A stretch of DNA of 15,442 nt from Chloroflexota bacterium. Its GTDB lineage: Bacteria > Chloroflexota > Dehalococcoidia > JACQUE01. The stretch is from positions 1 to 15,442 of the forward strand of contig JACQUE010000240.1 of assembly GCA_016210425.1 (NCBI GenBank). The letters run 5' to 3'. The position numbers and the translations under genes are program-made. This document shows positions 1,342 through 15,442 of the stretch, in pieces; positions within the stretch are counted from its first letter, which is position 1; each line of letters opens with the position of its first letter. Below the pieces are notes generated by a model that worked only from the letters and a program-made list of their open reading frames with translations, was not told the origin of the DNA and did no database searches.

Positions 1342-1375
1342 GTGGGGAATTGTGGTGAATTGTGGGCATTATGGG
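1342..1375 (+). promoter_or_regulatory. MraZ operator: tandem TGGG/TGGT repeats at 10-bp spacing
   Basis: TGGG occurs at 1343 and 1363, TGGT at 1353, and TGGG again at 1372 (9-bp step). The first two units, GTGGGGAATT and GTGGTGAATT, are 9/10 identical tandem copies. MraZ proteins are known to bind TGGG-type direct repeats one helical turn apart in the leader of their own operon, and mraZ begins 20 nt downstream. The repeats lie at about +5 to +38 of the predicted transcript, a position suited to repression of transcription. Confidence 0.75.
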
Positions 1376-1395
1376 AGCCACGGGGTGTCTGGGAC

Positions 1396-1824
1396 ATGTT
1401 TCTGGGTGAATACGAATACAACATAGACCAGAAGGGGCGCGTCGCCATCCCGGCACGTTTTAGGGACGAGTTCCGGGGCGGGCTCGTTGTTGCGCGCGGC
1501 TACGACCGATGCATCGTCGTCTACCCCTTGCCCGAGTGGCAGAGGATGGCCGACAAGATAACCTCGCTTCCTCTAACGCGGCAGACCTCCCGTCGCCTCA
1601 GCCGGGCCACCTTCGCCAGCGCCTACAACCTTGAGCTTGACCGCCAGGGCCGCGTGATTATCCCTGCCTCCCTGCGTGATTATGCGGGTATTAGGGATAG
1701 TGCCGTTATTGTTGGCGTCCACAATTGTCTGGAGATATGGGATAAGGACCTCTGGGCGGCCGAGAAGTCGATCATGACGGAGCAGGCCGCGGAGATAGCA
1801 GAGGCAGCAGAGGTGGCCCTGTGA
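1396..1824 (+). CDS. mraZ: MraZ, transcriptional regulator of the dcw operon
   Basis: The product is 142 residues, the usual MraZ length. It begins [20 protein letters not shown], the characteristic MraZ N-terminus. It contains two SpoVT-AbrB-like DNA-binding halves, each with a DxKGR/DRQGR...IPA.xR signature (first near residues 10-24, second in [19 protein letters not shown]). MraZ forms ring-shaped oligomers that bind repeated TGGG sites and regulates the dcw operon, and such repeats lie immediately upstream. The reading frame is open back to a GTG at 1342, but that extension lies inside the operator and has no MraZ-like sequence, so ATG 1396 is chosen. Its ribosome-binding site is weak (GGGG at 1382-1385), which may keep the regulator at low level. 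The stop overlaps the GTG start of rsmH. Confidence 0.95.
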
Positions 1825-2759
1825 GGCTAATGGTGGAATACTCAAACCACGTGCCGGTCCTCCTGGACGAGGTTGTGGCGGGCCTGGACGTCATCCCCGG
1901 AGGCCGTTACATCGACTGCACGGTGGGGGCTGGTGGTCATGCCGAAGCCATTCTTGAGGCGAGCGCTCCGGGTGGCCAGCTCCTGGGCATCGACGCCGAT
2001 CCGCACGCCGTCTCCGTTACCTCTGCCCGGCTGCGTCCCTATGGCTCCTCTGTCCTGCTGGTCAACGACAACTTCCGCAACCTGGAGGCCATCTGCACCC
2101 GCTACTCCTTCTACCCCGTGCACGGCGTCCTCTTTGATCTCGGCATCTCCTCTCTGCAGCTTGCCGGAGAGGGGCGCGGCTTCAGCTTCCGGGCCGAAGA
2201 GCCTCTGGACATGCGCTTCAGCCCCGACCAGCGCCTCACGGCGGCCGATATCGTCAACACCTACTTTGAGGAGGACCTGGCCGAGATATTGCGCTCTTAT
2301 GGGGAGGAGCCCCATAACCGCCGCATCGCCAGGGAGATAGTGGCGCATCGGCCGCTGCTGACGGCCCGCGAGCTGGCCCAGCTCATTGAGAGGATGAGCG
2401 GTGGAGGACGGCGCGGCCGCATCCATCCGGCGACGCGCACCTTTATGGCCCTGCGCATCGCTGTCAACGAGGAGCTGGAGAGCCTGAAATCGGCGTTGGA
2501 GCAGGCAACGAGGCTGCTGGGCAAGGGCGGAAGACTTGCCGTCATCAGCTTCCATTCATTGGAGGATAGGGTAGTGAAGGCATTTATGCATGAGGAATCC
2601 CGTGAGTGCATCTGCCCGCCGGGTGTGCCGGTCTGCATCTGCGGGCATCAGGCGACGCTGCGGCTGATCAGCCGCAAGGCGATCATGCCCAGCGCCGAGG
2701 AGACCGAGCGCAACCCGCGCAGCCGCAGCGCGCGACTGAGGGTGGCCGAGAGGATATAG
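1821..2759 (+). CDS. rsmH: 16S rRNA (cytosine-1402-N4)-methyltransferase RsmH
   Basis: The product is 312 residues, a normal RsmH (MraW) length. It opens with [10 protein letters not shown] and has the SAM-binding motif GAGGH at residues 36-40, then GIDADPHAV. Family signatures follow: DLGISSLQL, a GRGFSF...PLDMRFSP block, [30 protein letters not shown] and the C-terminal [11 protein letters not shown] Cys-rich stretch ([13 protein letters not shown]) near the C-terminus is common in the family. RsmH methylates N4 of C1402 in 16S rRNA in the decoding centre. The GTG start at 1821 overlaps the mraZ stop by 4 nt and has GAGG 7 nt upstream. An ATG at 1830 in the same frame is a reasonable alternative and would shorten the protein by three residues. 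Confidence 0.96.
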
Positions 2760-3239
2760 ATGCCCGGCGGGGCGGCCCAGCGTCTGGTCGGGGCAGCAGG
2801 GTGTGAGATGGACATCGCGGCGTCGAAAGAGAGGGCTCAAGAGCTGGCAGGTCATGGTGACCTGTTGGCCTTCTTGCCGCTGATAATGGCCATCGTCAGC
2901 CTGGCTAGCCTGCTCTTGCTGGTCCAGACCAGCCGGGTCGCCACCGCCGGCTACGATATCCGCCGTTTGGAGCAACTCCGCGAGAGTTGGAGGCAGCGGA
3001 ACTACGAACTGGATGTGGAGGTGTCCAGGCTGCAATCTCTGGAGCGGGTGGAGACGGAGGCCAGAAGCAGATTTCACATGGTTGAGCCATCCGGTTACGT
3101 GTACGTGGCGGTGGATACCCCGCCGCCGGTACGTGCGGAGGTTGCTCCTGAAACCACCGGTTGGGATGAAAGCGAGCCAAGCGTGAAGATATCTAAACAC
3201 TGGTGGGAAGCCTTTTTCCGGCCTATATTCTCTCGGTAA
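2760..3239 (+). CDS. ftsL: FtsL-like septum protein (bitopic, coiled coil)
   Basis: This 159-residue protein has a cytoplasmic N-terminus of about 35 residues and one membrane segment (about 35-57, LLAFLPLIMAIVSLASLLLL). A predicted coiled coil follows (about 64-104, IRRLEQLRESWRQRN.EL..EVSRLQSLERVE.EAR), then MVEPSGYVYVAVD and a Pro/Glu-rich tail. The layout matches FtsL/DivIC-type proteins, which bridge FtsQ-type proteins and the FtsW-FtsI synthase at the division site. FtsL sequences are poorly conserved, so the name rests mainly on topology and on position between rsmH and ftsI, the standard location. The ATG follows the rsmH stop with no gap and has GAGAGGA 5 nt upstream. The unusual extra is the C-terminal 40 residues, ending in a Trp/Phe-rich segment (HWWEAFFRPIF) that could contact the membrane. 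Confidence 0.8.
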   Translation: MPGGAAQRLVGAAGCEMDIAASKERAQELAGHGDLLAFLPLIMAIVSLASLLLLVQTSRVATAGYDIRRLEQLRESWRQRNYELDVEVSRLQSLERVETEARSRFHMVEPSGYVYVAVDTPPPVRAEVAPETTGWDESEPSVKISKHWWEAFFRPIFSR

Positions 3240-3263
3240 CATAAAGTAGGTAGATACACCGGC

Positions 3264-3286
3264 GGGGAGACTCCCCCGAGCTTCGG
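3264..3286 (+). other. Two adjacent short hairpins in the ftsL-ftsI gap
   Basis: GGGGA/TCCCC (3264-3276) and CCGA/TCGG (3276-3286) are small stem-loops in the 56-nt gap, the longest junction in the operon. They end 9 nt before the ftsI ATG and lack a T run, so a terminator is unlikely. They could stabilise an mRNA end or influence ftsI translation. Confidence 0.35.
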
Positions 3287-3295
3287 CGGTGACGG

Positions 3296-5053
3296 ATGTC
3301 AAGGTTAGCGGGCATAGGCGGTTGGAGGGTTGGCGTGGTGATGATGTTGCTTGCCAGTTCCACGCTGGCGCTGGTCGCACGTCTTGCTAACCTGCAGATA
3401 ATGCAGCATGACCAGTATGCCGCCCAGGCCCGCAGCGAGCACTGGAGCCGCGACAAGGTGCCGGCGCACCGCGGGGCCATCCGCGATAGGAACGGCTACG
3501 CCTTAGCCATCACCGCCACAACCTACGATCTCTACCTCAAGCCCAAGGTCTCGGGGCCGGTCACTGCCGCCAATACCGCCAAGGCCCTCGCCCCGCTCAT
3601 TGATGTCCCGCCTGAGAAGATCATGGCCACCCTGACAGGGGAGGACAAGGGGAAGGCCCTCGTGGCCGCCAACATCTCTTATGCCACCGGCGAGAAGATA
3701 AGGTCGATGGGATTGCCGGGCGTTGAGGCCGTCGAGAAGGTCCGCCGCTTCTACCCTGAGGGCAACCTCGGCTCGACTCTCATGGGCTTCGTGGGCAAGG
3801 ACGGCAACGGACTGACGGGCGCCGAGGAGAGCCTGGACGGGGACCTGGCGGGCATCGCCGGGCTGCTAGTGTACGAGCGCGATAGTACGGGCGAGCCGAT
3901 ACCCCTCGGCATAAACAGCCTGACGCCGCCTGAGGCCGGGGCCGACGTCTACCTGACCATCGACCGCTACATCCAGCGCCTGGCCGAGAGGGAGCTCGAC
4001 AAGGCGATGGAGAAGCACAAGGCTAGCGGCGGCACCATCATCGTTATGGATCCCAAGACCGGGGAACTCCTGGCTATGGCCAGCCGGCCCGCTTTTGACC
4101 TCACCAAGATCGAGACGGATCTGGCCCAGCTTAATCCGAAAGACTCAAAGCAGGTCGCCCTCTTCCGCAACCGCGCCGTAGCAGACGTCTATGAGCCGGG
4201 CTCGACGTTCAAGATCATCACGATGGCCTCCGCCGTTAACGAGGGGCTGGTCAATGCCAATACGACCTACTATGATGGAGGGCCGGTCAACAAGTATGGC
4301 TGGAATATCGACACGTGGAATGGCAAGCATTTCGGCCAAGAGACGATGACCCAGCTCCTCCAGCACAGTAACAACGTCGGTGCGGTCTGGGTCAGCGACC
4401 GACTGGGGACGGACCGCTTCTACAAATACGTGCGCCTCTTCGGCTTCGGCCAGGCCACAAACGTTGGGCTCGCGGGGGAGGGCCGCGGCCAGGTCCGCTA
4501 TCCCACCGAGGCGGGATGGTACCCCGTCGACTTGGCGGTCAACAGCTTCGGCCAGGGTATAAGCGTGACCCCCTTGCAGATGATCACTGCCGCGTCAGCC
4601 GTTGCCAACGGCGGCAGCCTGATGCAGCCCTACGTCGTCAAGCGTATCGAGGGGCCTAGGGGCACTCGGAGCTTCTCACCGGTGCCGGTGCGGCGCGTCG
4701 TCAGCGAGGCGACGTCGCGAACGCTGCGGGAGATGCTGACGAAGGTGGCGGAGGGCGAGAACACGGTGTTGCCGCTGGCAGCGGTGCCGGGATACAAGGT
4801 GGCAGGCAAGACGGGGACCGCCTCCATACCAGGCCCTGGAGGGTACACGTCGGCGGCGACCATCGCCTCGTTCATAGGCTTCGGCCCGTCGGATAATCCC
4901 AGGTTCATCATCCTGGTCAAGATCGATGAGCCGCAGGACTCGCCCTGGGGTAGCCTGGTCGCTTCGCCCATCTTTAGCTCCATCGCGAAGCAGACATTCG
5001 CCTACCTGCAGATACCGCCCACCGACACGGCCCTGGCCTTGGCCAACAGGTGA
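3296..5053 (+). CDS. ftsI: Class B penicillin-binding protein, septal transpeptidase (FtsI/PBP2 type)
   Basis: The 585-residue protein has an N-terminal membrane anchor (about 10-30) and the RGAIRDRNGYALA entry to the class B dimerisation (pedestal) domain near residue 59. The C-terminal transpeptidase domain has all three active-site motifs: STFK with nucleophile Ser303, SNN at 358-360 and KTGT at 505-508. It lacks C-terminal PASTA repeats and has no glycosyltransferase domain, so it depends on a partner polymerase, most likely the FtsW encoded further down. It crosslinks septal peptidoglycan on the outer face of the membrane and would be a beta-lactam target. Position after the FtsL-like gene supports a division role over an elongation role (PBP2/MrdA). 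murE, which usually comes next, is absent; murF follows after 16 nt. Confidence 0.95.
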   Translation: MSRLAGIGGWRVGVVMMLLASSTLALVARLANLQIMQHDQYAAQARSEHWSRDKVPAHRGAIRDRNGYALAITATTYDLYLKPKVSGPVTAANTAKALAPLIDVPPEKIMATLTGEDKGKALVAANISYATGEKIRSMGLPGVEAVEKVRRFYPEGNLGSTLMGFVGKDGNGLTGAEESLDGDLAGIAGLLVYERDSTGEPIPLGINSLTPPEAGADVYLTIDRYIQRLAERELDKAMEKHKASGGTIIVMDPKTGELLAMASRPAFDLTKIETDLAQLNPKDSKQVALFRNRAVADVYEPGSTFKIITMASAVNEGLVNANTTYYDGGPVNKYGWNIDTWNGKHFGQETMTQLLQHSNNVGAVWVSDRLGTDRFYKYVRLFGFGQATNVGLAGEGRGQVRYPTEAGWYPVDLAVNSFGQGISVTPLQMITAASAVANGGSLMQPYVVKRIEGPRGTRSFSPVPVRRVVSEATSRTLREMLTKVAEGENTVLPLAAVPGYKVAGKTGTASIPGPGGYTSAATIASFIGFGPSDNPRFIILVKIDEPQDSPWGSLVASPIFSSIAKQTFAYLQIPPTDTALALANR

Positions 5054-5058
5054 GGCGC

Positions 5059-5064
5059 GGAGGG
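5059..5064 (+). promoter_or_regulatory. Shine-Dalgarno that fixes the TTG start of murF
   Basis: GGAGGG sits 5 nt upstream of TTG at 5070 (GGAGG with a 6-nt spacer). The murF frame stays open upstream into ftsI, but there is no other plausible start near the conserved N-terminus, so this site is what defines the gene's beginning. Confidence 0.75.
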
Positions 5065-5069
5065 ATACA

Positions 5070-6434
5070 TTGGTCTACGGGGACGTAATTAGAGCCCTGG
5101 GCAGCCATCTGCTGGAGGTACGGGAGCCGCGCGCGGAGAGCGGCGACTTCGGCGAGGTAGTGATCGACACGCGGCGGATGAAGCCAGGCGATCTGTTTGT
5201 AGCCCTGAAGGGCGGGCGTGGCGACGGACACGACTACCTGGGCGCAGCCCTCGCAGCGGGCGCCGGAGCCGCCCTAGCGGAGCGCGTCCCTGATGGCCTC
5301 ACCTGCGCGGCGCCGGTCTTTGTCGTATCCGACTCCCTGAGGGCGTTGCAGGCTCTTGCTGCCTACTGGCGGGACAGGCATCCGGCACGGGTCATCGGCG
5401 TGACGGGCTCTGTGGGCAAGACGAGCGCCAAGGACCTGATCGCGGACCTGCTGGCGACGCGCTACACCGTGCTGCGCAACGAGGGCAACCTCAACAACGA
5501 GATCGGGCTGCCGCTGACGCTCCTCAAGCTGAGCGAGAAGCACGACCGGGCTATCGTCGAGATGGGCATGTACGATCTGGGGGAGATAGCGACCCTCTGC
5601 GTCATAGCGAGACCCAGCATAGGTGTGGTAACGAACATCGGCCCAAGCCACCTGGAGCGCCTCGGCAGTCTGGAGCGCATCGCCCAGGCCAAGGGGGAGC
5701 TGGTGGAAGCCCTTCCTGCTGATGGCTGGGCGGTGCTCAACGGCGACGACGAGCGCGTGCTTGCTCTGGCTGGACGGACGCGGGCGCACGTCATCTTCTA
5801 TGGCCTTGGAACCGACAACGACGTGCGCGCCGAAGACATCGAGAGCTTGGGTCTCGGTGGAGTGCGCTTCACGCTGCGTTCGGAAGGCCTGGCTGTATCC
5901 GTGGAGATGGCCGTGCCGGGGCGGCACAATGTCTATGGAGCCCTGGCCGCGGCAGCCGTCGCCCGGATCGAAGGCCTTTCGCTGGAGGAGATCGGGGCTG
6001 GACTGAGGGGCATCAAGGGTCAGGCCCACCTCATGGTGCTGGCCGGCGTCAACGGCAGCACCATTATCGATGACACGTACAACGCGAGCCCGGTCTCGGC
6101 GAAGGCGGCTCTGGACCTGCTGGCGGAGCTTCCGGGGCGGAAGATCGCCGTCCTTGGAGATATGCTGGAGCTAGGCTCCTACGCGGAGGAGGGACACAGG
6201 GATGTCGGGCGGAGAGCCGCGCAGGTGGCCGATATGCTCGTTGCCGTCGGCGAGTTGGGCCGCATAATCGGTGAGGAGGCGGCGAGCGGGGGACTGGTGA
6301 AGGTCATCTTCGCGGGAACCAATGAAGAAGCAAGTGAATGGCTGCTCTCGGCGCTGGAGTTGGGGGATAAGGTGCTGGTGAAGGGGTCGCGGGGGGTGCG
6401 CATGGAGCAGATAGTAGATAGGATCAAGCGATAA
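5070..6434 (+). CDS. murF: UDP-MurNAc-tripeptide:D-alanyl-D-alanine ligase MurF
   Basis: Starting at TTG 5070 the product is 454 residues, normal for MurF. It adds D-Ala-D-Ala to UDP-MurNAc-tripeptide in the cytoplasm using ATP. Visible signatures are the N-terminal substrate domain (VIDTRRMKPGDLFVALKG), the P-loop TGSVGKTS with Lys117, NEGNLNNEIGLPLTLL, VEMGM, TNIGPSHLERLGS, PGRHNVYGALAAAA, and the MurF-specific DDTYNASPVSAKAAL, then LGDMLELG and a VKGSRGVRMEQI end. The YNASP motif separates it from MurE, which carries DNPR instead, so this is not a displaced MurE. The frame is open upstream to 4926 within ftsI, but that part encodes out-of-frame ftsI shadow and was excluded. The stop overlaps the mraY start by one base (TAATG). 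D-Ala-D-Ala would come from Ddl at the operon's end. Confidence 0.95.
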   Translation: MVYGDVIRALGSHLLEVREPRAESGDFGEVVIDTRRMKPGDLFVALKGGRGDGHDYLGAALAAGAGAALAERVPDGLTCAAPVFVVSDSLRALQALAAYWRDRHPARVIGVTGSVGKTSAKDLIADLLATRYTVLRNEGNLNNEIGLPLTLLKLSEKHDRAIVEMGMYDLGEIATLCVIARPSIGVVTNIGPSHLERLGSLERIAQAKGELVEALPADGWAVLNGDDERVLALAGRTRAHVIFYGLGTDNDVRAEDIESLGLGGVRFTLRSEGLAVSVEMAVPGRHNVYGALAAAAVARIEGLSLEEIGAGLRGIKGQAHLMVLAGVNGSTIIDDTYNASPVSAKAALDLLAELPGRKIAVLGDMLELGSYAEEGHRDVGRRAAQVADMLVAVGELGRIIGEEAASGGLVKVIFAGTNEEASEWLLSALELGDKVLVKGSRGVRMEQIVDRIKR

Positions 6435-7390
6435 TGCGTCAAGCGCTCGCGGTCGGAGCCTTCTCATTCTTGGTCGCCCTGGGCACCGGATGGCCCGTCA
6501 TCCTGCTGCTCCGGCGCTACCGCGTCGGCAAGCGTATCAGCAGCGAGGGTCCAGAGCGGCATCTTGCCAAGCTGGGTACGCCTACAATGGGCGGCCTTAT
6601 CATCTTCCTCACAGTGGTGATCGCCACCATACCGTTTAACCTGGTCCACCGCTACTCGATCTTCCTGCCCCTGGGCACCATGGTGGGCTGCGGCATCCTG
6701 GGCGCCTTCGATGACACCATGACCCTAACCGGCTCCAAGAAGGCTGGCATGACGGCGCGGCTCAAGTTCGCCTGGCTCACTGCAATAGCCCTTGGCGCTG
6801 CGCTTGTCCTCTACTACGGCTTCGAGGCACGAAGCATCAACGTGCCCTTCCTAGGCAAGTACGACATCGGCCTCTGGTACATACCCATCGCCGTATTCGC
6901 TATCGTTGGCTTTGCCAATGCCGTCAACCTCACCGATGGGCTGGATACGCTGGCCGGCGGCACAGCCGCCCTGGGCTTCACCGCCTACGGCGTCATCGCC
7001 TTCCTGCAGCAGCAGGCCTTTCTTGTCACGTTCTCGTTCACCGTGGTCGGGGCAACCCTTGGCTTCCTCTGGTACAACTCGCACCCGGCGATGGTCTTCA
7101 TGGGCGACACCGGCTCGCTGGCCCTGGGTGCGACGCTGGCGGTGGTGGCGCTCATGACCGGCTGGTGGCTGCTGCTGCCCCTCATCGGCGGGGTGTTCGT
7201 GATCGAGACAGGCTCGGTGATGGCGCAGGTCGCCTATTTTAAGCTGACGCATGGCAAGCGACTCCTGCGCATGAGCCCCCTGCACCATCACTTCGAGCTT
7301 ATCGGCTGGAAAGAGACTCAGATCACCATGCGCTTCTGGCTGGCGGGCATGGCGATGGCCATGCTTGGCATCGCGCTGGCGCTTTCATGA
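6434..7390 (+). CDS. mraY: Phospho-MurNAc-pentapeptide translocase MraY
   Basis: The 318-residue polytopic protein transfers phospho-MurNAc-pentapeptide from UDP to undecaprenyl phosphate, making lipid I on the inner face of the membrane. Catalytic signatures are all present: GTPTMGG near the N-terminus, FDD with Asp93-Asp94, NAVNLTDGLDTLAGG, MGDTGS with Asp225, and the HHH cluster at 284-286 in SPLHHHFELIGWKE. About ten hydrophobic segments fit the known fold, and the length matches the shorter Gram-positive-like form rather than the 360-residue enterobacterial one. Translation is coupled at both ends: the ATG overlaps the murF stop by 1 nt and the TGA overlaps the murD start by 4 nt. Confidence 0.96.
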   Translation: MRQALAVGAFSFLVALGTGWPVILLLRRYRVGKRISSEGPERHLAKLGTPTMGGLIIFLTVVIATIPFNLVHRYSIFLPLGTMVGCGILGAFDDTMTLTGSKKAGMTARLKFAWLTAIALGAALVLYYGFEARSINVPFLGKYDIGLWYIPIAVFAIVGFANAVNLTDGLDTLAGGTAALGFTAYGVIAFLQQQAFLVTFSFTVVGATLGFLWYNSHPAMVFMGDTGSLALGATLAVVALMTGWWLLLPLIGGVFVIETGSVMAQVAYFKLTHGKRLLRMSPLHHHFELIGWKETQITMRFWLAGMAMAMLGIALALS

Positions 7391-8784
7391 GAGGGACTGT
7401 CTTGGCAAGCAGGCTGGAGCTAAAGGGGAAGAGGGTGACTGTCATTGGCCTTGGCGTCGAAGGCAGGGCCCTCGTGCGCTACCTCTGTGGTGAGGGCGCG
7501 CAGGTCACAGCCAGCGACTCGCGGCCGGCCGAGAGGCTTGCCGCCGGCCTGCGGGACGTCGAAGGGCTGCCGGTGCGCCTGTCGCTGGGCGGTAACCAGA
7601 TTGCGGATGCCGTGGGCGCCGAGGTCGTCTTCGTGAGCCCGGGCGTGCCGCTGGACATCGCGCCCCTGGCCGCTGCCCGCCAGCGCGGCATCCCCTTCAG
7701 TTCGGTGACCAGGCTCTTCTTCGAGCGCTGTCCCGCGCCCATCATCGCTATCACCGGCAGCAATGGCAAGACGACCACGACTAGCCTCGTGGCCGAGATG
7801 CTGAAGGCGGCGGGGCGCGATGTATTCCTGGGGGGCAACATCGGGCAGCCCCTGCTGGAGTCGCTGCCGGAGATAGGCCCCGGTAGCTGGGTGGTGCTGG
7901 AGCTGAGCAGCTTCCAGCTCCAGATCATGGAGCAGAGCCCGCATATTGCCGCCGTCACCAATGTCACCCCCAACCACCTCGATCAGCACCGCTCCATGGA
8001 GGAGTACATCGAGGCCAAGCGCAACATCGTGCGCTACCAGCGGGCGGATGATTTCGCGGCGCTCGGCTACGATAACGCGATTTCGCGCGCAATGGCCCAC
8101 GGCTGCCCCGCCAGGGTCATCTTCTCCAGCCGGGAGACCGAGCCGCCGGGGGACGCCGCCTTTCTGCGCGGTAGCAGGGTGATTGTGCGACTCGATGAAC
8201 GCGAGAGCCATATTTGCGATCGGGGCCAGATCCCGCTTCTCGGCGAGCACAACGTGAGCAACGTCATTATGGCGTCGGCTATCGCGATGGCGGCCGGAGT
8301 TGGGAGCGATGCCATCGCCAAGGCCATCGATGGCTTCCGCGGCGTAGCGCACCGGCTGGAGCCGGTCCGGGATCTGGACGGGGTCACCTACTATAACGAC
8401 AGCATCGCCACCAGCCCGGAGCGGGCTGTAGCGGGGCTGCGCTCCTTCACACAACCCATCGTCCTTATAGCAGGAGGCCGCGAAAAGCACCTGCCGCTGG
8501 ACGAGTTCGTGCGGACGGTCCAGGAGCGTTGCCGGGCCGTGGTGCTGTACGGCGAGGCGGCGCCGGTGCTGAAGGATGCGCTGCGGGCGGCGAAGGGCGT
8601 GCCCGTTCGCATGAGTCCGTCATTCGCCGAGGCGCCGGCAATCGCACGGGGCGAGGCGAGACCGGGCGATGTTGTGCTTCTCTCCCCAGCCTGCACCAGC
8701 TATGACCTCTTCGCCAACTTCGAGGAGCGGGGAGACGAGTTCAAGCGCCTGGTGCAGGAGCTAAAGCCGCGGAGGGAATTATGA
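7387..8784 (+). CDS. murD: UDP-MurNAc-L-alanine:D-glutamate ligase MurD
   Basis: The 465-residue product has the three-domain Mur ligase layout. A Rossmann-like N-terminal domain (VTVIGLGVEGRALVRYL, SPGVPLD) binds the UDP part. The central ATPase domain has GSNGKTTTT with P-loop Lys128, GGNIGQPLLE, VLELSSFQL and TNVTPNHLDQH. The C-terminal domain has HRLEPV, YYNDSIATSPERA, GGREKHL and SPACTSYDLFANFEERGDEF. The SSFQL and SPACxSxD motifs are specific for MurD. It adds D-Glu to UDP-MurNAc-L-Ala in the cytoplasm. The length is slightly above the E. coli enzyme (438), with no obvious extra domain. It overlaps mraY and ftsW by 4 nt each (ATGA). Confidence 0.95.
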   Translation: MRGTVLASRLELKGKRVTVIGLGVEGRALVRYLCGEGAQVTASDSRPAERLAAGLRDVEGLPVRLSLGGNQIADAVGAEVVFVSPGVPLDIAPLAAARQRGIPFSSVTRLFFERCPAPIIAITGSNGKTTTTSLVAEMLKAAGRDVFLGGNIGQPLLESLPEIGPGSWVVLELSSFQLQIMEQSPHIAAVTNVTPNHLDQHRSMEEYIEAKRNIVRYQRADDFAALGYDNAISRAMAHGCPARVIFSSRETEPPGDAAFLRGSRVIVRLDERESHICDRGQIPLLGEHNVSNVIMASAIAMAAGVGSDAIAKAIDGFRGVAHRLEPVRDLDGVTYYNDSIATSPERAVAGLRSFTQPIVLIAGGREKHLPLDEFVRTVQERCRAVVLYGEAAPVLKDALRAAKGVPVRMSPSFAEAPAIARGEARPGDVVLLSPACTSYDLFANFEERGDEFKRLVQELKPRREL

Positions 8785-9929
8785 CGGAGGCGGCGCTAAG
8801 GAGGGAGGTCTTGCGCAAGAGGCCCGATTATCTGATCCCGGCTCTCACTGGCGTGCTGCTGCTCATCGGGTTGCAGGCCGTGTACAGCGCCACCTTTGCC
8901 CTGGGCGTACGCCAGTATGGCAGCGTCGGCTACTTCGTGACGAGGCAGAGTATGTGGGCCGGCGTCGGGCTGATCATGTTTATCGTTGGCTCGCGGGTCA
9001 ACTACCGACGCTGGATCGCCTGGAGCCCCTGGATCATGCTGGGGTGCCTGGGGGCGTTGGCGGCGGTCCTCGTGCCGAGCCTGGGGCTCACCCGATATGG
9101 CGCGACACGCTGGCTGCAGATAGGGCCTTTCGGTGTGCAGCCCAGCGAGTTCATTAAGCTCTCACTCATCCTCTACGTCTCGGCGTGGCTGGCGACGCGC
9201 GGCGAGAGGCTGCGGAGCTGGTCATCGGGATTCCTGCCATTCGTCATAATAGTGGGGCTCGTCGGCGGCCTCATCATGCTGCAGCCTGATTTGGGGACGA
9301 CGCTCATCATCCTATTCGTGACCGCCATCCTCTTTTTTGTCGGCGGCGCCGACCTGCGCCAGTTCCTGGTGCTGGCCGTGGCCGGGCTGGCGGCGATGGC
9401 GATGCTCATAGCGGGCGCCGGCTACCGTTCCGATCGCTGGGAGGCCTTCGTCAACCCCTGGGATGACCCGGCGGGCAAGGGCTTCCACATCATCCAGCTT
9501 CTCATCGCGCTGGGCAGCGGCGGCGTCACCGGCCTGGGTATTGGCGCTAGCCGCCAGAAGTTTTTCTACGTGCCCGGCTCCCATACCGACGGCATTTTCG
9601 CCATTATCGGCGAGGAGGTGGGCTTCGTGGGGGCGATCCTTGTCATCGCCGTCTTTGCCGCGCTGGTCTGGCGCGGCTTCAAGGTGGCATCTGCGGCTCC
9701 TGACCAATACGGAGGGCTCGTGGCGGTGGGCATCACCTGTTGGCTGGGCTTTCAGGCCCTTATCAACATCGGTGGCATCACGCGCTCGATCCCGCTGACC
9801 GGCATACCGCTGCCTTTCATCAGCTACGGAGGCTCCTCTCTTGCGGTATCCATGGCCGCGATTGGTATCTTATTCAACATATCGAAGTACGGCCTGCCGT
9901 CGAGGCAGGTAGCGCCGGCGCCGGCCTAG
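8781..9929 (+). CDS. ftsW: SEDS peptidoglycan glycosyltransferase FtsW
   Basis: The 382-residue polytopic protein has about ten membrane segments and the SEDS-family signatures: GATRWLQIGPFGVQPSEFIKL, LQPDLGTT, FVNPWDDPAGKGFH, GASRQKFFYVPGSHTDGIFAIIGEE, and PLTGIPLPFISYGGSS near the C-terminus. Asp270 in SHTDGIF corresponds to the large extracytoplasmic loop aspartate implicated in polymerase activity. SEDS proteins polymerise lipid II into glycan strands in complex with a class B PBP. Location between murD and murG is the classical ftsW position and argues for FtsW over RodA. Start and stop codons are tightly linked to neighbours (4-nt overlap with murD, 13-nt gap to murG). Confidence 0.95.
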   Translation: MTEAALRREVLRKRPDYLIPALTGVLLLIGLQAVYSATFALGVRQYGSVGYFVTRQSMWAGVGLIMFIVGSRVNYRRWIAWSPWIMLGCLGALAAVLVPSLGLTRYGATRWLQIGPFGVQPSEFIKLSLILYVSAWLATRGERLRSWSSGFLPFVIIVGLVGGLIMLQPDLGTTLIILFVTAILFFVGGADLRQFLVLAVAGLAAMAMLIAGAGYRSDRWEAFVNPWDDPAGKGFHIIQLLIALGSGGVTGLGIGASRQKFFYVPGSHTDGIFAIIGEEVGFVGAILVIAVFAALVWRGFKVASAAPDQYGGLVAVGITCWLGFQALINIGGITRSIPLTGIPLPFISYGGSSLAVSMAAIGILFNISKYGLPSRQVAPAPA

Positions 9930-9942
9930 AGAGCTATGAGCG

Positions 9943-11055
9943 ATGCGTTTTGTGATCACGGGGGGCGGCACCGGAGGGCATGTTTACCCGGCCCTAGCGG
10001 TAGTCGAGGTGCTGGCCAGGGAAGAGCAGGATAAAGGGATGAGTCGGAGCGAGCTATTGTACGTTGGCATGGCGCAGGGCATCGAGGCTGGCCTGGCCAC
10101 CAGGACAGGGTTGCCCTTCGCCGCTGTACGGGCCGGCGCAATTAGAGGCGGCTCGCCCATCCGGATCGTCGCCGGCGCTGCGAAGCTGCTCCTAGGTATT
10201 GTGCGGGCTTGGCAGGTGCTGCGGCGCTTCCGGCCCAAGGCCGTGCTGTCGACGGGAGGCTACGTCTCGGTGCCGGTCGGCCTGGCGGCCTGGCTGCTGC
10301 GCGTACCGCTGGTCGTCTATCTGCCCGACGTGGCGCCGGGCTGGGCTGTGAGGTTACTGGCGCGCTTCGCAAGGCGCGTGGCAGTGACATCTGAGGCATC
10401 GCGCGCCTACCTGCCGCCCGCAAAGGTTGTGGTGACTGGTTATCCCGTCCGTGCCGTTTTTGGCTCGGCAAGCAAAGAGGAGGCGCAGCGCAAGATGGGG
10501 CTTGACCCTGTGCTGCCGACGCTCCTCCTCTGGGGAGGCAGCCGCGGCGCCCGCAGCCTCAATCGTGCCCTTGGCGTTGTCCTGGCTGAGGTACTCGATC
10601 TGTGCCAGGTGTTGCACGTCTGCGGCACGGAGGACGAGGCGGAGTTCCAGGCCAGGCGCGAGGCTCTGCCTGCGGAGCTTCGCGAGCGCTACCACGTCCA
10701 CGCCTATCTGTATGACGACCTGCCGCTGGCGATGGTCGCCGCCGACCTAGCCGTATCGCGGGCGGGCGCTTCGATCATGGGCGAGTTCCCTGTTGCCGGG
10801 CTGCCTAGCATCCTCGTACCGTACCCATACGCAGGCGGTCATCAGTGGCTGAATGCGAAGGCGCTCGTGGACGGTGGCGCCGCCGAGATCATCGAGGATG
10901 CGGACTTAGAGGCCAGGCTGCTGCCGGCGGTGCGAGACCTGATCTGCGACCAGGAGCGGCTGGCCGGGATGGCGGCTGCGTGCCGCAGGTTGGCGAGGCC
11001 GGATGCGGCGCGAGAGATAGCGAGGCTGCTGCTTCAGGCAGGAGCCAGTCGTTGA
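9943..11055 (+). CDS. murG: UDP-GlcNAc:lipid I GlcNAc transferase MurG
   Basis: The 370-residue GT28-family protein adds GlcNAc to lipid I to give lipid II at the inner face of the membrane. The N-terminal acceptor domain begins with the glycine-rich loop GGGTGGHVYPALAV and continues with STGGYVSVPVGLAAWLL. The C-terminal donor domain shows LLWGGSRGARSLNRAL, SRAGASIMGEF, AGLPSILVPYPYAGGHQWLNA and an aliphatic end. One clear departure is that the HEQN-type motif after the second glycine loop, highly conserved in well-studied MurG proteins, reads YLPD here (residues 126-129, in VVYLPDVAPG). The remaining catalytic-site motifs are intact, so activity is still expected; this may be a lineage variant. 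It follows ftsW after 13 nt. Confidence 0.93.
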   Translation: MRFVITGGGTGGHVYPALAVVEVLAREEQDKGMSRSELLYVGMAQGIEAGLATRTGLPFAAVRAGAIRGGSPIRIVAGAAKLLLGIVRAWQVLRRFRPKAVLSTGGYVSVPVGLAAWLLRVPLVVYLPDVAPGWAVRLLARFARRVAVTSEASRAYLPPAKVVVTGYPVRAVFGSASKEEAQRKMGLDPVLPTLLLWGGSRGARSLNRALGVVLAEVLDLCQVLHVCGTEDEAEFQARREALPAELRERYHVHAYLYDDLPLAMVAADLAVSRAGASIMGEFPVAGLPSILVPYPYAGGHQWLNAKALVDGGAAEIIEDADLEARLLPAVRDLICDQERLAGMAAACRRLARPDAAREIARLLLQAGASR

Positions 11056-11100
11056 AAGCGACACCATAGTTGGCATGGAGAAGGGACCGAGGTAACTGAG

Positions 11101-11721
11101 ATGGACGCGGCACTGTGGGGCCTGATAGCGATGCTCCTGCTGGGAGCGCTGGGCTTCCTGCGCGGGGGGCGCGCCGAGGGTATATCGCTGGCGGGCGTCA
11201 TCGGCACGGCGACGGTGCTCACCCAAAGCGGGCTACGCGACCGGGTGGTCAGTCTGGTGAACAAGGGGCCCAAGCTGGTGGATGTCCTCTTGCGGCCTGA
11301 CGAGTCATCGGCAGCCGGGGCGGCATCGCAGGCCAGGCAGCTCCTGGCCACTGCCGATCAGAAGCTCCTCTTCTACGTTGGCTTCTTCGTGCTGGGTGTC
11401 ATCGTCTTCTACCTGGCGGGCTCGGCCATGGGCGGGTCGGCGATAGGCATGGTGCAGCGACTGGCGGGAGGGATCATGGGCGCTATCAGCGGCTACGTCA
11501 TCGGCCTCTCGCTCACCAACTTCAGCCAGGACTACCTGAGCCGGCATCCGGCCAGCGGTCAGATGAAACTTCAGCTTCCGTCGGTGTTCTCTCCGGAGCT
11601 GCCGCACACGAACTCGCTTTCGCAGTACGCGCCTCTGATATTCGTCATGGGACTCTTCGTGATAGCCCTGCTGGCTGCCTTCTCCTTCTTCCGAGGGCGA
11701 GGTGCCAAGGTGAAGCAGTGA
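11101..11721 (+). CDS. Multi-pass membrane protein, CvpA-like, in the murG-murC gap
   Basis: This 206-residue protein has about five hydrophobic segments (about 4-20, 27-43, 88-108, 118-138 and 177-197). The first two, with LGFLRGGRAEGISLAGVIG between them, resemble the start of CvpA-family proteins, as does the overall layout of short helices rich in Gly/Ala. A polar loop (about 44-87) and a second loop (about 141-176) separate the helices, and the C-terminus is basic (FRGRGAKVKQ). I cannot name a family with confidence. ATG 11101 has GAGGTAA 5 nt upstream, and the stop lies one base before the murC start, so it is a true operon member and probably acts at the membrane in envelope synthesis or division. 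The 45-nt gap after murG is larger than most junctions here. Confidence 0.85.
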   Translation: MDAALWGLIAMLLLGALGFLRGGRAEGISLAGVIGTATVLTQSGLRDRVVSLVNKGPKLVDVLLRPDESSAAGAASQARQLLATADQKLLFYVGFFVLGVIVFYLAGSAMGGSAIGMVQRLAGGIMGAISGYVIGLSLTNFSQDYLSRHPASGQMKLQLPSVFSPELPHTNSLSQYAPLIFVMGLFVIALLAAFSFFRGRGAKVKQ

Positions 11722-11722
11722 T

Positions 11723-13113
<1,391 letters not shown>

Positions 13114-13117
<4 letters not shown>

Positions 13118-14055
13118 AGGAGCTCCTTAAGATACTGGAGGAGAGGGTCGAGGTGCTCGCCAACGAGCCCATGTCCCGCCACACCTCCATCCAGGTCGGC
13201 GGCCCTGCCGACTACTACGTGACGGTGAAGACTGCCGCTCAGCTCGCCTGGATCTGCCAGGCCGCCTGGCGATGCGACGCTCCCTTCTTTGTCTTCGGCA
13301 ACGGGACAAATCTGCTTGTGCGCGATGGTGGCATCCGCGGGCTGGTGGTGGAGAACCGCGCCAGCCGCGTCCGTGGCCTCAAGGACACCGCAGCCTGGGC
13401 CTTCGAAACCATCTCCATTTTCGTCGAGTCCGGCACGTCCTTGCGCGGGCTGGCCATGCGCACGGCGAAGGCCGGCTGGCAGGGTCTCGAGTGGGCGGCG
13501 GGCATTCCGGGCACCGTGGGTGGCGCCGTCCTCTCCAACGCGGGCGCCCATGGCGGCTGCATCGCCAACGCCTTCCGCTCGGGGCGGGTGCTCTGCGCCA
13601 ATGCCGCCAAGGTGCAGGAGTGGCAGCCGGAGGCCTTCGGCTTTACCTATAGACGAAGCGTCCTGCAGGCCGAGACTGGGCATCGGGCGCCGAGCACGGT
13701 AGTGCTGGGGGTGACGCTCTCGCTGCAGCGCTGCGAGGCTGCGACTTTGCTGGCGCGCATCGAGAAGTACCTCGGCTGGCGGCGGCGGAACCAGCCTCAG
13801 CTTCCCAGCGCAGGCTCAGTTTTCAAGAACCCGGGGCGGCTCGGCGCCGGTGCACTCATCCAGCAGGTGGGGCTCAAAGGCGAACGCCGGGGAGATGCCC
13901 AGTTTTCGCCGGAGCACGCCAACTTCATCGTGAACCTGGGCGGAGCCAGGGCGACGGACATCGAGATGTTGATGGCGCTGGCGCGCCAGATGGTTAAGGA
14001 CAGCTTCGGCATCGGGCTGGAGCTAGAGGTCCAGATCGTGGGGGAGGCGGCATGA
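13114..14055 (+). CDS. murB: UDP-N-acetylenolpyruvoylglucosamine reductase MurB
   Basis: The 313-residue flavoprotein reduces UDP-GlcNAc-enolpyruvate to UDP-MurNAc with NADPH and bound FAD. FAD-binding motifs are visible: [33 protein letters not shown], and [41 protein letters not shown] with the proton-donating Ser235, [29 protein letters not shown] and a C-terminal [10 protein letters not shown], with the conserved Glu, complete the active site. The length and the lack of long insertions suggest the shorter type found in many Gram-positive bacteria. Order murC-murB-ddl is common in dcw operons. It overlaps both neighbours by 4 nt, so the three proteins are probably made in matched amounts. 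Confidence 0.95.
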
Positions 14056-15119
14056 TGGTGGGTGGAACGAGCAAGCTGCGGGTGGGAGTCATCTTCGGCG
14101 GGCGCTCCGCCGAGCGCGAGGTATCGGTGACGTCGGCGCGGGCCGTCATGGCGGCGATGGACTGGAAACGGTATGAGATCGTTCCGATCCTGATAACCCA
14201 AGACGGGCGCTGGCTGTCGCCGGAGCGCACCGAACGATTCTTGAGCCAAGGCGAGGCGGGAGACCCGCCCAATGGGGTCATCGAGTTGCCGGCGATGGGC
14301 CGCCTCGTAGATGTGGCCTTCCCGTTGGTGCATGGCACGTATGGCGAGGACGGCACGCTGCAGGGAGCCCTGGAGATGATGGACATACCCTACGTGGGCT
14401 GCGGCGTCCTGGCCAGCGCGCTGGGCATGGACAAAGTGGTTCAGAAGACGCTCTTCCGGATGAGGGGGCTGCCTATTGCCGATTTCGTGGCCTTCAAGTC
14501 ACATGATCTCTCTGCTGACAGGAGGGGCGCCCTGGCCAGAGTGGAGGCCCAGATTGGCTTTCCCTGCTTCGTCAAGCCGGCCAACCTTGGGAGCAGCGTC
14601 GGCATCAGCAAGGCGCGCAATGAAGAGGCATTAGAAGGAGCGATATCTGTGGCGCTGCGCTATGACGAGAAGGTGATCGTCGAGGAGGCGATCATCGGAC
14701 GAGAGTTGGAGTGCAGCGTCCTGGGCAACGAGGAGCCGGAGGTTTCTTGCCTGGGTGAGATCGTTCCTGTTGGAGAATTCTACGATTACGACGCTAAGTA
14801 TGTCGATGATAGCGCCCATCTAATCTTTCCTGCCAAAGTGGAGCCAGACTTGGAGGCCGAGGCAAGGCGCCTGGCCATTGAGGCCTTTAAAGCCATCGAC
14901 GGCTCCGGCATGGCCCGTGTCGACTTCTTCCTGCGCGGGAGCGACGGCAAGCTCATCATAAACGAGGTGAACACCATCCCCGGCTTCACGCGCATCAGCA
15001 TGTACCCGAAACTCTGGGAGGCGAGCGGCGTTTCTTACGCGGAACTGCTCGACCGCCTCATTCAGCTCGCGCTCGCGCGCCATCGGCGGGACAAGAAGCT
15101 CAAAACGACGTACGATTAG
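14052..15119 (+). CDS. ddl: D-alanine:D-alanine ligase Ddl
   Basis: The 355-residue ATP-grasp enzyme makes the D-Ala-D-Ala dipeptide used by MurF. Signatures are VGVIFGGRSAEREVSVTSA, HGTYGEDGTLQGALEMMDIPYVG (HGxxGEDG), MDKVVQK, CFVKPANLGSSVGISKA (phosphate-binding loop), VEEAIIGRELECSV, EIVP...FYDYDAKY, RVDFFL and NEVNTIPGFTRISMYPKLW. The YDYDAKY stretch retains the Tyr typical of D-Ala-D-Ala ligases, with no sign of a D-lactate or D-serine type switch. Two ATG codons in frame (14052, 14055) both overlap or adjoin the murB stop. It is the last gene of the operon in this window; ftsQ, ftsA and ftsZ do not follow. Confidence 0.96.
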   Translation: MMVGGTSKLRVGVIFGGRSAEREVSVTSARAVMAAMDWKRYEIVPILITQDGRWLSPERTERFLSQGEAGDPPNGVIELPAMGRLVDVAFPLVHGTYGEDGTLQGALEMMDIPYVGCGVLASALGMDKVVQKTLFRMRGLPIADFVAFKSHDLSADRRGALARVEAQIGFPCFVKPANLGSSVGISKARNEEALEGAISVALRYDEKVIVEEAIIGRELECSVLGNEEPEVSCLGEIVPVGEFYDYDAKYVDDSAHLIFPAKVEPDLEAEARRLAIEAFKAIDGSGMARVDFFLRGSDGKLIINEVNTIPGFTRISMYPKLWEASGVSYAELLDRLIQLALARHRRDKKLKTTYD

Positions 15120-15174: not shown

Positions 15175-15185
15175 GCTTTGTTGCA
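15175..15185 (+). repeat. Left terminal inverted repeat
   Basis: GCTTTGTTGCA; exact inverse of 15432-15442. The preceding G at 15174 may belong to it. Confidence 0.7.
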
Positions 15186-15223
15186 AAAACATTTCTGCGG
15201 TAATAAAAATGCGAAATCCTTTT

Positions 15224-15308
15224 TAGCGCCGAAGGCGCGCCCGTCAGTAGCCTGGGGCGGAAGCCCCAGGAATCGGATCTCAACAAGACGTCAAGCCCCG
15301 AAGGGGCG
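15224..15308 (+). repeat. Palindromic unit 1 (REP-like), + orientation
   Basis: This 85-bp unit contains three hairpins in order: GCGCC/GGCGC with a GAA loop (15226-15238), CCTGGGGC/GCCCCAGG with a GGAA loop (15251-15270), and GCCCC/GGGGC with a GAA loop (15295-15307). The linker GCCCGTCAGTAGCC places GTAG (15247-15250) directly before the middle hairpin. GTAG at the foot of a palindrome is the hallmark of REP sequences mobilised by RAYT (REP-associated tyrosine) transposases. Unit 2 is its inverted relative. Confidence 0.8.
15247..15270 (+). repeat. REP-like core: GTAG plus 8-bp hairpin
   Basis: GTAG (15247-15250) is followed at once by a perfect 8-bp stem closed by GGAA, a GNRA-type tetraloop on this strand. 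Confidence 0.7.
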
Positions 15309-15321
15309 GCAGGAAAAGTGT

Positions 15322-15406
15322 CGCGCCTTCGGCGCTAAGACCGTCTTTATTCTGCGAATCCCACGGCTTACGCCGTGGGCTACGGACGGGCGCCCCTTCG
15401 GGGCTT
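15322..15406 (-). repeat. Palindromic unit 2 (REP-like), inverted copy
   Basis: Read on the - strand it matches unit 1 end to end without gaps, 57 of 85 positions identical by hand count. Hairpins are at 15392-15404 (GCCCC type), 15360-15379 (CCCACGGC/GCCGTGGG, loop GTAA on the - strand) and 15323-15335 (GCGCC type). All paired features of units 1 and 2 are symmetric about 15315, and 13 nt separate the units. The outer and inner small hairpins swap types relative to unit 1. Confidence 0.8.
15360..15383 (-). repeat. REP-like core of unit 2: GTAG plus 8-bp hairpin on the - strand
   Basis: CTAC at 15380-15383 is GTAG on the - strand and abuts a perfect 8-bp stem (15360-15379) with a GTAA (GNRA-type) loop, mirroring the core at 15247-15270. 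Confidence 0.7.
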
Positions 15407-15431
15407 TATCGGAAAGTGCCATTTATTTTTA

Positions 15432-15442
15432 TGCAACAAAGC
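15432..15442 (-). repeat. Right terminal inverted repeat, at the window's edge
   Basis: TGCAACAAAGC; exact inverse of 15175-15185. The sequence stops on its last base. Confidence 0.7.

Follow-up and report, generated by a model that had tools for sequence, protein, structure and literature searches.

The window, the whole 15,442-nt stretch of Chloroflexota DNA analysed here, carries at positions 1342–15119 an ordinary-looking division and cell-wall gene cluster in mraZ to ddl order, as judged by eye from the ORF translations. The ddl-like ORF (14052–15119, also named by eye) lies directly upstream of a feature that is composed of two three-hairpin units in inverted order. A scripted self-alignment of the window places the mirror centre of these units at 15315.0, with 57 of 86 aligned positions identical and no indel, in agreement with an earlier note on this DNA that had described inverted hairpin units with a common symmetry centre at 15315 and no net indel. 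On the + strand, the left unit begins with a 5-bp outer small hairpin closed by a GAA triloop (GCGCC GAA GGCGC; 15226–15238), which is followed by a 9-nt linker (15239–15247), a TAG foot (15248–15250), an 8-bp main hairpin with a GGAA loop (15251–15270), 24 nt, and a second, inner small hairpin of 5 bp with a GAA triloop (15295–15307). The right unit is the mirror image on the − strand and runs from 15404 down to 15323. Its outer small hairpin (5 bp, GAA triloop) occupies 15392–15404, the 9-nt linker and the TAG foot 15380–15391, and the inner small hairpin (GAA triloop) 15323–15335; its main hairpin is closed by a GTAA loop. The small hairpins and the left main hairpin were read directly and in the DNA fold (the latter also in the alignment), and the right foot with its linker was read directly and in a geometry scan.

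When folded as DNA, the 88-nt arms of the feature outscore shuffled sequence by 2.9 to 4.0 sd, whichever strand is taken; with the Rfam scores given below, this argues against a chance arrangement. The CGTC of the linker can pair with a GACG 3´ of the main hairpin in both arms, and in the DNA fold prediction this pairing closes a branched structure (15239–15294 and its mirror). Four of the 13 stem pairs in the 45-nt core differ between the left and the right unit, and all four are changed on both sides and still Watson-Crick; the unpaired positions differ at 2 of 19. A fifth compensated pair was read off the alignment in the inner small hairpin. The five compensated stem differences of the earlier note are thus present, four in the core and one in the inner small hairpin, and the compensated stems support its view that the fold is under selection. 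An outer inverted repeat surrounds the two units, with its left copy at 15175–15189 (+) and its right copy at 15428–15442 (−). The two copies match at 14 of 15 positions, and 6 of 5000 shuffles were as good. The right copy ends exactly at the contig end, so the right flank beyond 15442, where a target duplication would lie, is missing. Because this repeat lies outside the range given earlier (15224–15406), the element may be longer than that range.

Both cores belong to the Rfam family Acido-Lenti-1 (RF01687), a membership that the earlier note had not recognised. A cmscan of the whole window at gathering thresholds returned only two matches, and both are the hairpin units. The right unit (15360–15404; TAG strand −, Rfam RNA strand +) was matched at 15360–15405 with 53.2 bits (E 8.5e-10), and the left unit (15226–15270; TAG strand +, Rfam RNA strand −) at 15225–15270 with 52.3 bits (E 1.5e-9). 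Both matches cover the full model (1–46) and lie above the gathering cut-off of 37 bits, and the inner third hairpin of the window units is absent from the model. This inner hairpin was also visible by eye in some gene-bearing relatives. The family was proposed by Weinberg et al. (2010; PMC2864571), who, in the accessible text, scored it 'y' (probably RNA), listed it as not cis-regulatory and assigned it to Acidobacteria and Lentisphaerae.

The host genome is 54% complete, and a search of it with the linker pattern and with a 323-base stretch gave no real copy besides the window pair; the high copy number typical of REPs was thus not observed there. Likewise, no Y1 gene lies between or near the pair, and no Y1 match was found in this incomplete genome. 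The earlier note had proposed a search for further linker copies in the host and for a transposase gene. Because neither was found there, the case rests on relatives, in whose genomes many copies do occur. The window element sequence had no match in E. coli genomes, and its plasmid matches (18 records, E 0.9 to 3) are limited to the outer repeat plus its flank, or to short segments in other places. Three loci (L004, L007 and L008) of G022, a genome of the same class as the window genome, carry Acido-Lenti-1-like units at 31–34 bits, below the cut-off, some with CAG in place of TAG at the foot.

A scan with a degenerate core pattern found at least 117 stretches in genomes and 12 in viral contigs, and the matches listed include Planctomycetes, Acidobacteria, Verrucomicrobia, Bacteroidota and other taxa. 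Dispersed inverted pairs were observed in these relatives (19 in Planctomyces sp. G042 and 9 in G041), which supports the REP/BIME-like inverted pair proposed earlier. A Y1 transposase-like ORF was present in 10 of 129 pattern-chosen loci, and in all ten a pattern match overlaps the ORF or is no more than 206 nt away from it. The genomes of four of these ten loci, scanned in full, contain 42, 58, 7 and 28 Acido-Lenti-1 matches (E ≤ 0.001) and 4, 13, 2 and 5 Y1 matches, with the units clustered around several Y1 genes.

Seven linked proteins of 147–151 aa form an alignment of 151 columns in which two His, a Trp, a Gln, a Tyr, a further Gln and an HH pair are invariant. All seven match Pfam Y1_Tnp (4e-20 to 1e-26), and by sequence their nearest solved chains are ISHp608 and other IS200-type transposases. 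Each protein contains WQ, the Y...Q..HH motif and a conserved C-terminal piece. The HuH motif reads [DN]H[VCLI]H overall; the tabulated form DH[IV]H occurs in three of the seven, and the others have N for D or C/L in the middle. TnpAY1 subclass 1.2 is tabulated by Quentin et al. (2018; PMC6006769) with WQ, Y...Q..HH and DH[IV]H, with 'no' for REP and with a distribution in Cyanobacteria and Bacteroidetes, and the accessible text describes it as not sharing IS properties. The motifs of the linked proteins largely fit this subclass, an assignment made by motifs and not by the profiles of Quentin et al. The Y...NP motif of class 2 RAYTs is absent, and YI..Q..HH stands in its place in all seven. 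Among the four proteins scanned against NCBIfam, REP_Tyr_transpos matched two at 19.2 and 26.3 bits (cut-off 80), and transpos_IS200 matched all four, two of them over its cut-off. The REP/RAYT idea of the earlier note was therefore right in kind, in that a Y1/HUH enzyme is linked to the repeat, and wrong in class, since the proteins are IS200-like with subclass 1.2 motifs. Its GTAG foot is present in both window units (15247–15250 on the + strand, and the mirror) and is not required in relatives, where the base before TAG varies (A 95, G 61, T 36 and C 17 in 209 sites of a scan that itself demanded TAG).

Acido-Lenti-1 units flank genes for Y1/HUH transposases with subclass 1.2-like motifs, an association that is new. 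To avoid choosing loci by the repeat, a protein alignment (A1) was run against 148 genomes of the class of G042, and 55 of them contain the protein at E ≤ 1e-30. Thirty loci among the matches listed were taken, and 29 were counted, the one from the seed genome G042 being left out. Acido-Lenti-1 was found at E ≤ 0.5 in 21 of the 29 protein-chosen loci and at or over the gathering score in 9. Copies lie on both sides of the gene in 16 of 29, on the opposite strand upstream and on the gene strand downstream. In a scan of these loci with 4227 Rfam families, Acido-Lenti-1 accounted for 37 of 37 matches in one set and 13 of 15 in the other. No Rfam match was obtained in 8 of the 29 (L189, L200, L202, L205, L207, L208, L212 and L214). 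By eye, several of these eight loci have the same plan with a longer main hairpin. Related elements thus have the unit at the flank of the gene, as an end of a subclass 1.2 element should be.

For a scan by structure only, the next 40 protein matches were added and two G042 loci dropped, which gave 67 loci. A perfect unit in the expected orientation was observed in 41 of 67 (26 on both sides) and in the opposite orientation in 16 of 67; 26 of the 67 have none. After shuffling, 0–2 of 67 loci had one. The 25 control loci gave 3 in the expected and 5 in the opposite orientation; they are weaker Chloroflexota matches from another phylum that were judged to be without the C-terminal piece, and are not a clean control. 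The position of the TAG follows a sharp ruler: in the 300 nt next to the gene, 66 of 134 flanks contain a 5-bp hairpin, 9 nt and TAG, versus 0–8 at other spacings (3 to 19 nt), 24 on the flipped strand, 0 in shuffles and 0 of 50 control flanks (2 of 50 at 10 nt). Both window units obey the 9-nt ruler. In 29 Bacteroidota loci (G043 dropped), the spacing peaks at 10 nt (15 of 58 flanks; 5 when flipped).

Of two plasmid homologues, the one from Persicobacter has a single Acido-Lenti-1 match at 35.7 bits and the one from Bernardetia (L218) none. The four Y1 genes of G022 and G039 that were scanned are also without Acido-Lenti-1, and none of sixteen Chloroflexota Y1 loci (L161–L176) has a match over the cut-off, L164 having two at 23.8 bits. 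Four Chloroflexota genes with the C-terminal piece (L157–L160) showed the 10-nt spacing in 3 of 8 flanks and 4 of 8 when flipped, and had no Rfam match and no perfect unit. Small hairpins without a main hairpin, often with GAA loops, were seen by eye at these genes, on both sides in three and on one side in the fourth; possibly, these loci are the same system in reduced form. In viral contigs, the protein-alignment scan gave 29 pattern matches and no relative.

At the genome level (the 148 genomes less G042, with at most 38 candidates per genome scored), Acido-Lenti-1 at E ≤ 1e-5 was present in 47 of 54 genomes with the protein versus 20 of 93 without it, with a Fisher p of 3e-15 that is inflated by the kinship of the genomes. 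The exceptions are the 20 genomes that have the repeat without the protein and the 7 of 54 that have the protein without the repeat.

The boundaries of the gene-bearing units were located by comparing copies at different sites (L192, L194 and L201, which are one locus in three genomes, and L206 and L261); these share ~655 bp at 61–74% identity. In six of seven pairs, the homology ends on either side 1–4 nt beyond the outer small hairpins. The exception is the pair L201–L261, in which it continues for 14–15 nt on the right; in more distant pairs of gene-bearing copies, it is lost inside the unit. No target duplication was seen by eye at the gene-bearing units of this comparison. Five of the nine genomes of that genus (G336, G630, G631, G316 and G632) lack the gene-bearing unit at the L192 locus, G632 having a single unit; the intergenic DNA at this locus is too diverged for a readable junction.

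The outer inverted repeat of the window raises the possibility that an IS5-like DDE transposase moved the feature as a MITE, in which the Acido-Lenti-1 pair is only cargo. Terminal inverted repeats are what a DDE-type MITE should have, and the 14/15 repeat is weakly like IS5 family ends: weakly similar matches occur in 14 Acinetobacter plasmid records, and the one inspected adjoins an IS5 family gene. The same design, with other outer repeats, was observed in G042, where twelve gene-less pairs (L219–L230) share ~250 bp and an outer inverted repeat starting ACTCAAAC. Identical 5-bp repeats lie outside it in 4 of 9 evaluable copies and in 0 of 72 cross pairs, and such target duplications point to a DDE transposase rather than to a Y1 enzyme. 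All 21 sites of this outer repeat (up to 2 mismatches) are on contigs with such Acido-Lenti-1 pairs. An outer inverted repeat at a shuffle p ≤ 0.01 is present in 8 of 23 pairs examined, the window included, two of them being neighbouring tandem units in L063. In G041, no such outer repeat was seen by eye, and one side of the copies ends by the outer hairpin. Some pairs, perhaps the window's, were thus last moved by a DDE-type enzyme. Against cargo as the account of the family stand the gene-bearing copies, of which only 2 of 25 (L198 and L263) have outer repeats by eye; in these two, longer inverted repeats follow the outer hairpins, as in the gene-less chimaeras. The reading of all units as cargo of DDE MITEs was dropped as a general answer because the homology of gene-bearing copies ends at the outer hairpins. 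A DDE enzyme accounts for how some copies last moved and leaves the hairpin family unexplained, and for the window feature itself we regard the cargo reading as possible and somewhat doubtful.

Alternatively, Acido-Lenti-1 could be a functional small RNA that lies beside transposase genes through regulation of them or a shared intergenic space. The Rfam type of the family is sRNA, which accords with the 'y' score of Weinberg et al., and copies 3´ of Tannerella forsythia protease genes led to the suggestion of a possible link to protease expression in the accessible text of PMC13298647. The mirror-image copies on both sides of the gene and the dispersed inverted pairs in G042 and G041 are, conversely, the layout of element ends. 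The loops also point to the other strand: the triloop is GNA on the TAG strand, opposite to that of Rfam, in 50 of 74 protein-chosen sites, and among the 14 commonest main loops listed, 37 of 41 tetraloops are GNNA, the single commonest loop being the triloop AAC. GNA and GNNA loops are unusually stable in DNA. Stem exceptions on the TAG strand are more often G.T than A.C (16 vs 7 inside stems and 13 vs 1 at loop-closing pairs), mostly in the pattern-chosen set; this is a weak point against RNA, as the protein-chosen set alone has 2 G.T vs 0 A.C inside stems, too few to decide RNA vs DNA. We consider the small-RNA reading unlikely. Less probable still is that the hairpins serve the mur/ddl operon, which ends at 15119, as ordinary terminators or attenuators of transcription. 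The position just 3´ of the ddl-like ORF and the strength of the hairpins would suit them, and the mirror order of six hairpins, the conserved unpaired linker and the recurrence in many genomes would be unexplained.

Stem compensation outside the window is supported, although not cleanly. Two-sided changes were counted at 12 of 13 pairs, a largely circular result as 18 of 20 rows were chosen for perfect stems. In a less biased comparison of upstream with downstream units at 20 loci, 11 pairs had two-sided changes that kept the pairing, 3 had a one-sided change to G.T, 10 were broken by a one-sided change and 3 by a two-sided one, several of the broken pairs arising from a wrong partner or a shift in register. 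Unpaired positions differed at 85 of 374 in the same comparison.

Taken with the gene flanking, the orientation and the unit boundaries, the window feature at 15226–15404 is probably a mobile element in gene-less (non-autonomous) form, with an inverted Acido-Lenti-1 unit at either end and with a Y1/HUH gene enclosed in the complete form. The gene of that complete form would encode a Y1/HUH nuclease of ~150 aa, of the TnpAY1 subclass 1.2 type, and would have a unit on either side, commonly some 40 to 65 nt away. On single-stranded DNA, for example at a replication fork, the TAG strand would form the small hairpin with its GNA loop as well as the 8-bp hairpin, and the nuclease would recognise these folded hairpins. 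At its distance of 9 nt from the small hairpin, the TAG may be read as a guide in the way of the GTAG of REPs, for which a guide role of GTAG and cutting at CT or CA on single strands are described in the accessible text of Corneloup et al. (2021; PMC8266576). This analogy is one of working, not of membership, because the class 2 signature was looked for in the linked proteins and is absent. The nuclease tyrosine would then cut next to the outer hairpins, and the unit would be moved or copied as single-stranded DNA. Cleavage and mobility, including a past move of the window copy, are what we infer from these layouts.

A broader proposal is that Acido-Lenti-1 as a whole represents, in place of an RNA, the single-stranded DNA end of a widespread, unrecognised class of elements, with three-hairpin ends, a hairpin–9 nt–TAG ruler, cutting by subclass 1.2 Y1 enzymes and repeated capture into DDE-type MITEs. 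Two unrelated transposition chemistries would then move one and the same short element. We advance it tentatively, as an idea with a little less than an even chance of holding. The element-end reading would provide a likely function for a structured 'RNA' family whose role has been listed as unknown since 2010 and which was taken for a possible regulator (PMC13298647, accessible text); under it, the T. forsythia copies 3´ of protease genes would be element ends. It would also supply a DNA partner for a transposase group described, in the part of PMC6006769 available, as without REPs and IS properties. The hairpin–9 nt–TAG geometry is a sharp rule that is open to in vitro testing. More generally, structure-based RNA discovery would have to reckon with covariation that comes from folded DNA ends. 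A link between Acido-Lenti-1 and a transposase was not found in print in the accessible text of open-licence papers (including PMC2864571, PMC13298647 and PMC10059132).

Among known systems, the closest solved relatives of the linked proteins are the transposases of IS200/IS605 (subclass 1.1). IS200/IS605 elements have hairpin ends; in contrast to these, the Acido-Lenti-1 ends are inverted and also dispersed alone, and the linked proteins have an extra C-terminal piece. Compared with the Rfam description, which is an sRNA on the CTA strand, the unit is read here as a DNA end that would be active on the TAG strand. TnpAY1 subclass 1.2 resembles the linked proteins in WQ, Y...Q..HH and the conserved C-terminal piece (PMC6006769, accessible text). 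Its table differs in giving DH[IV]H, which three of the seven linked proteins have, and no REP, whereas here Acido-Lenti-1 flanks the genes, and in its taxa, which here are the class of Planctomyces sp. G042 together with pattern-chosen loci in Bacteroidota, Blastocatellia and others. As far as the available text of PMC8266576 and PMC3733652 describes them, REPtrons with class 2 TnpAREP (RAYT) share hairpin units around a Y1 gene, dispersed non-autonomous inverted pairs and a GTAG-like foot, and the REP of S. maltophilia is an 8-bp perfect palindrome with a short loop, like the main hairpin of the window (PMC3733652). The system described here differs from class 2 RAYT REPs in the lack of Y...NP, in the second small hairpin fixed 9 nt from the TAG and in that a strict GTAG is not required. 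Finally, TIRtrons (TIR-flanked RAYTs) and REP chimaeras, in which REP units are joined to unrelated stem-loops or inverted repeats, as reported for stem-loops in Pseudomonas (Di Nocera et al., 2013; PMC3733652, accessible text), parallel the joined repeats of G042 and perhaps those of the window. The enzymes differ, 20 of 26 TIRtron examples being of subclass 2.1 and the rest of subclasses 2.2 and 2.5 in the portion of Quentin et al. available (PMC6006769), whereas the proteins linked to Acido-Lenti-1 are of the subclass 1.2 type by their motifs.
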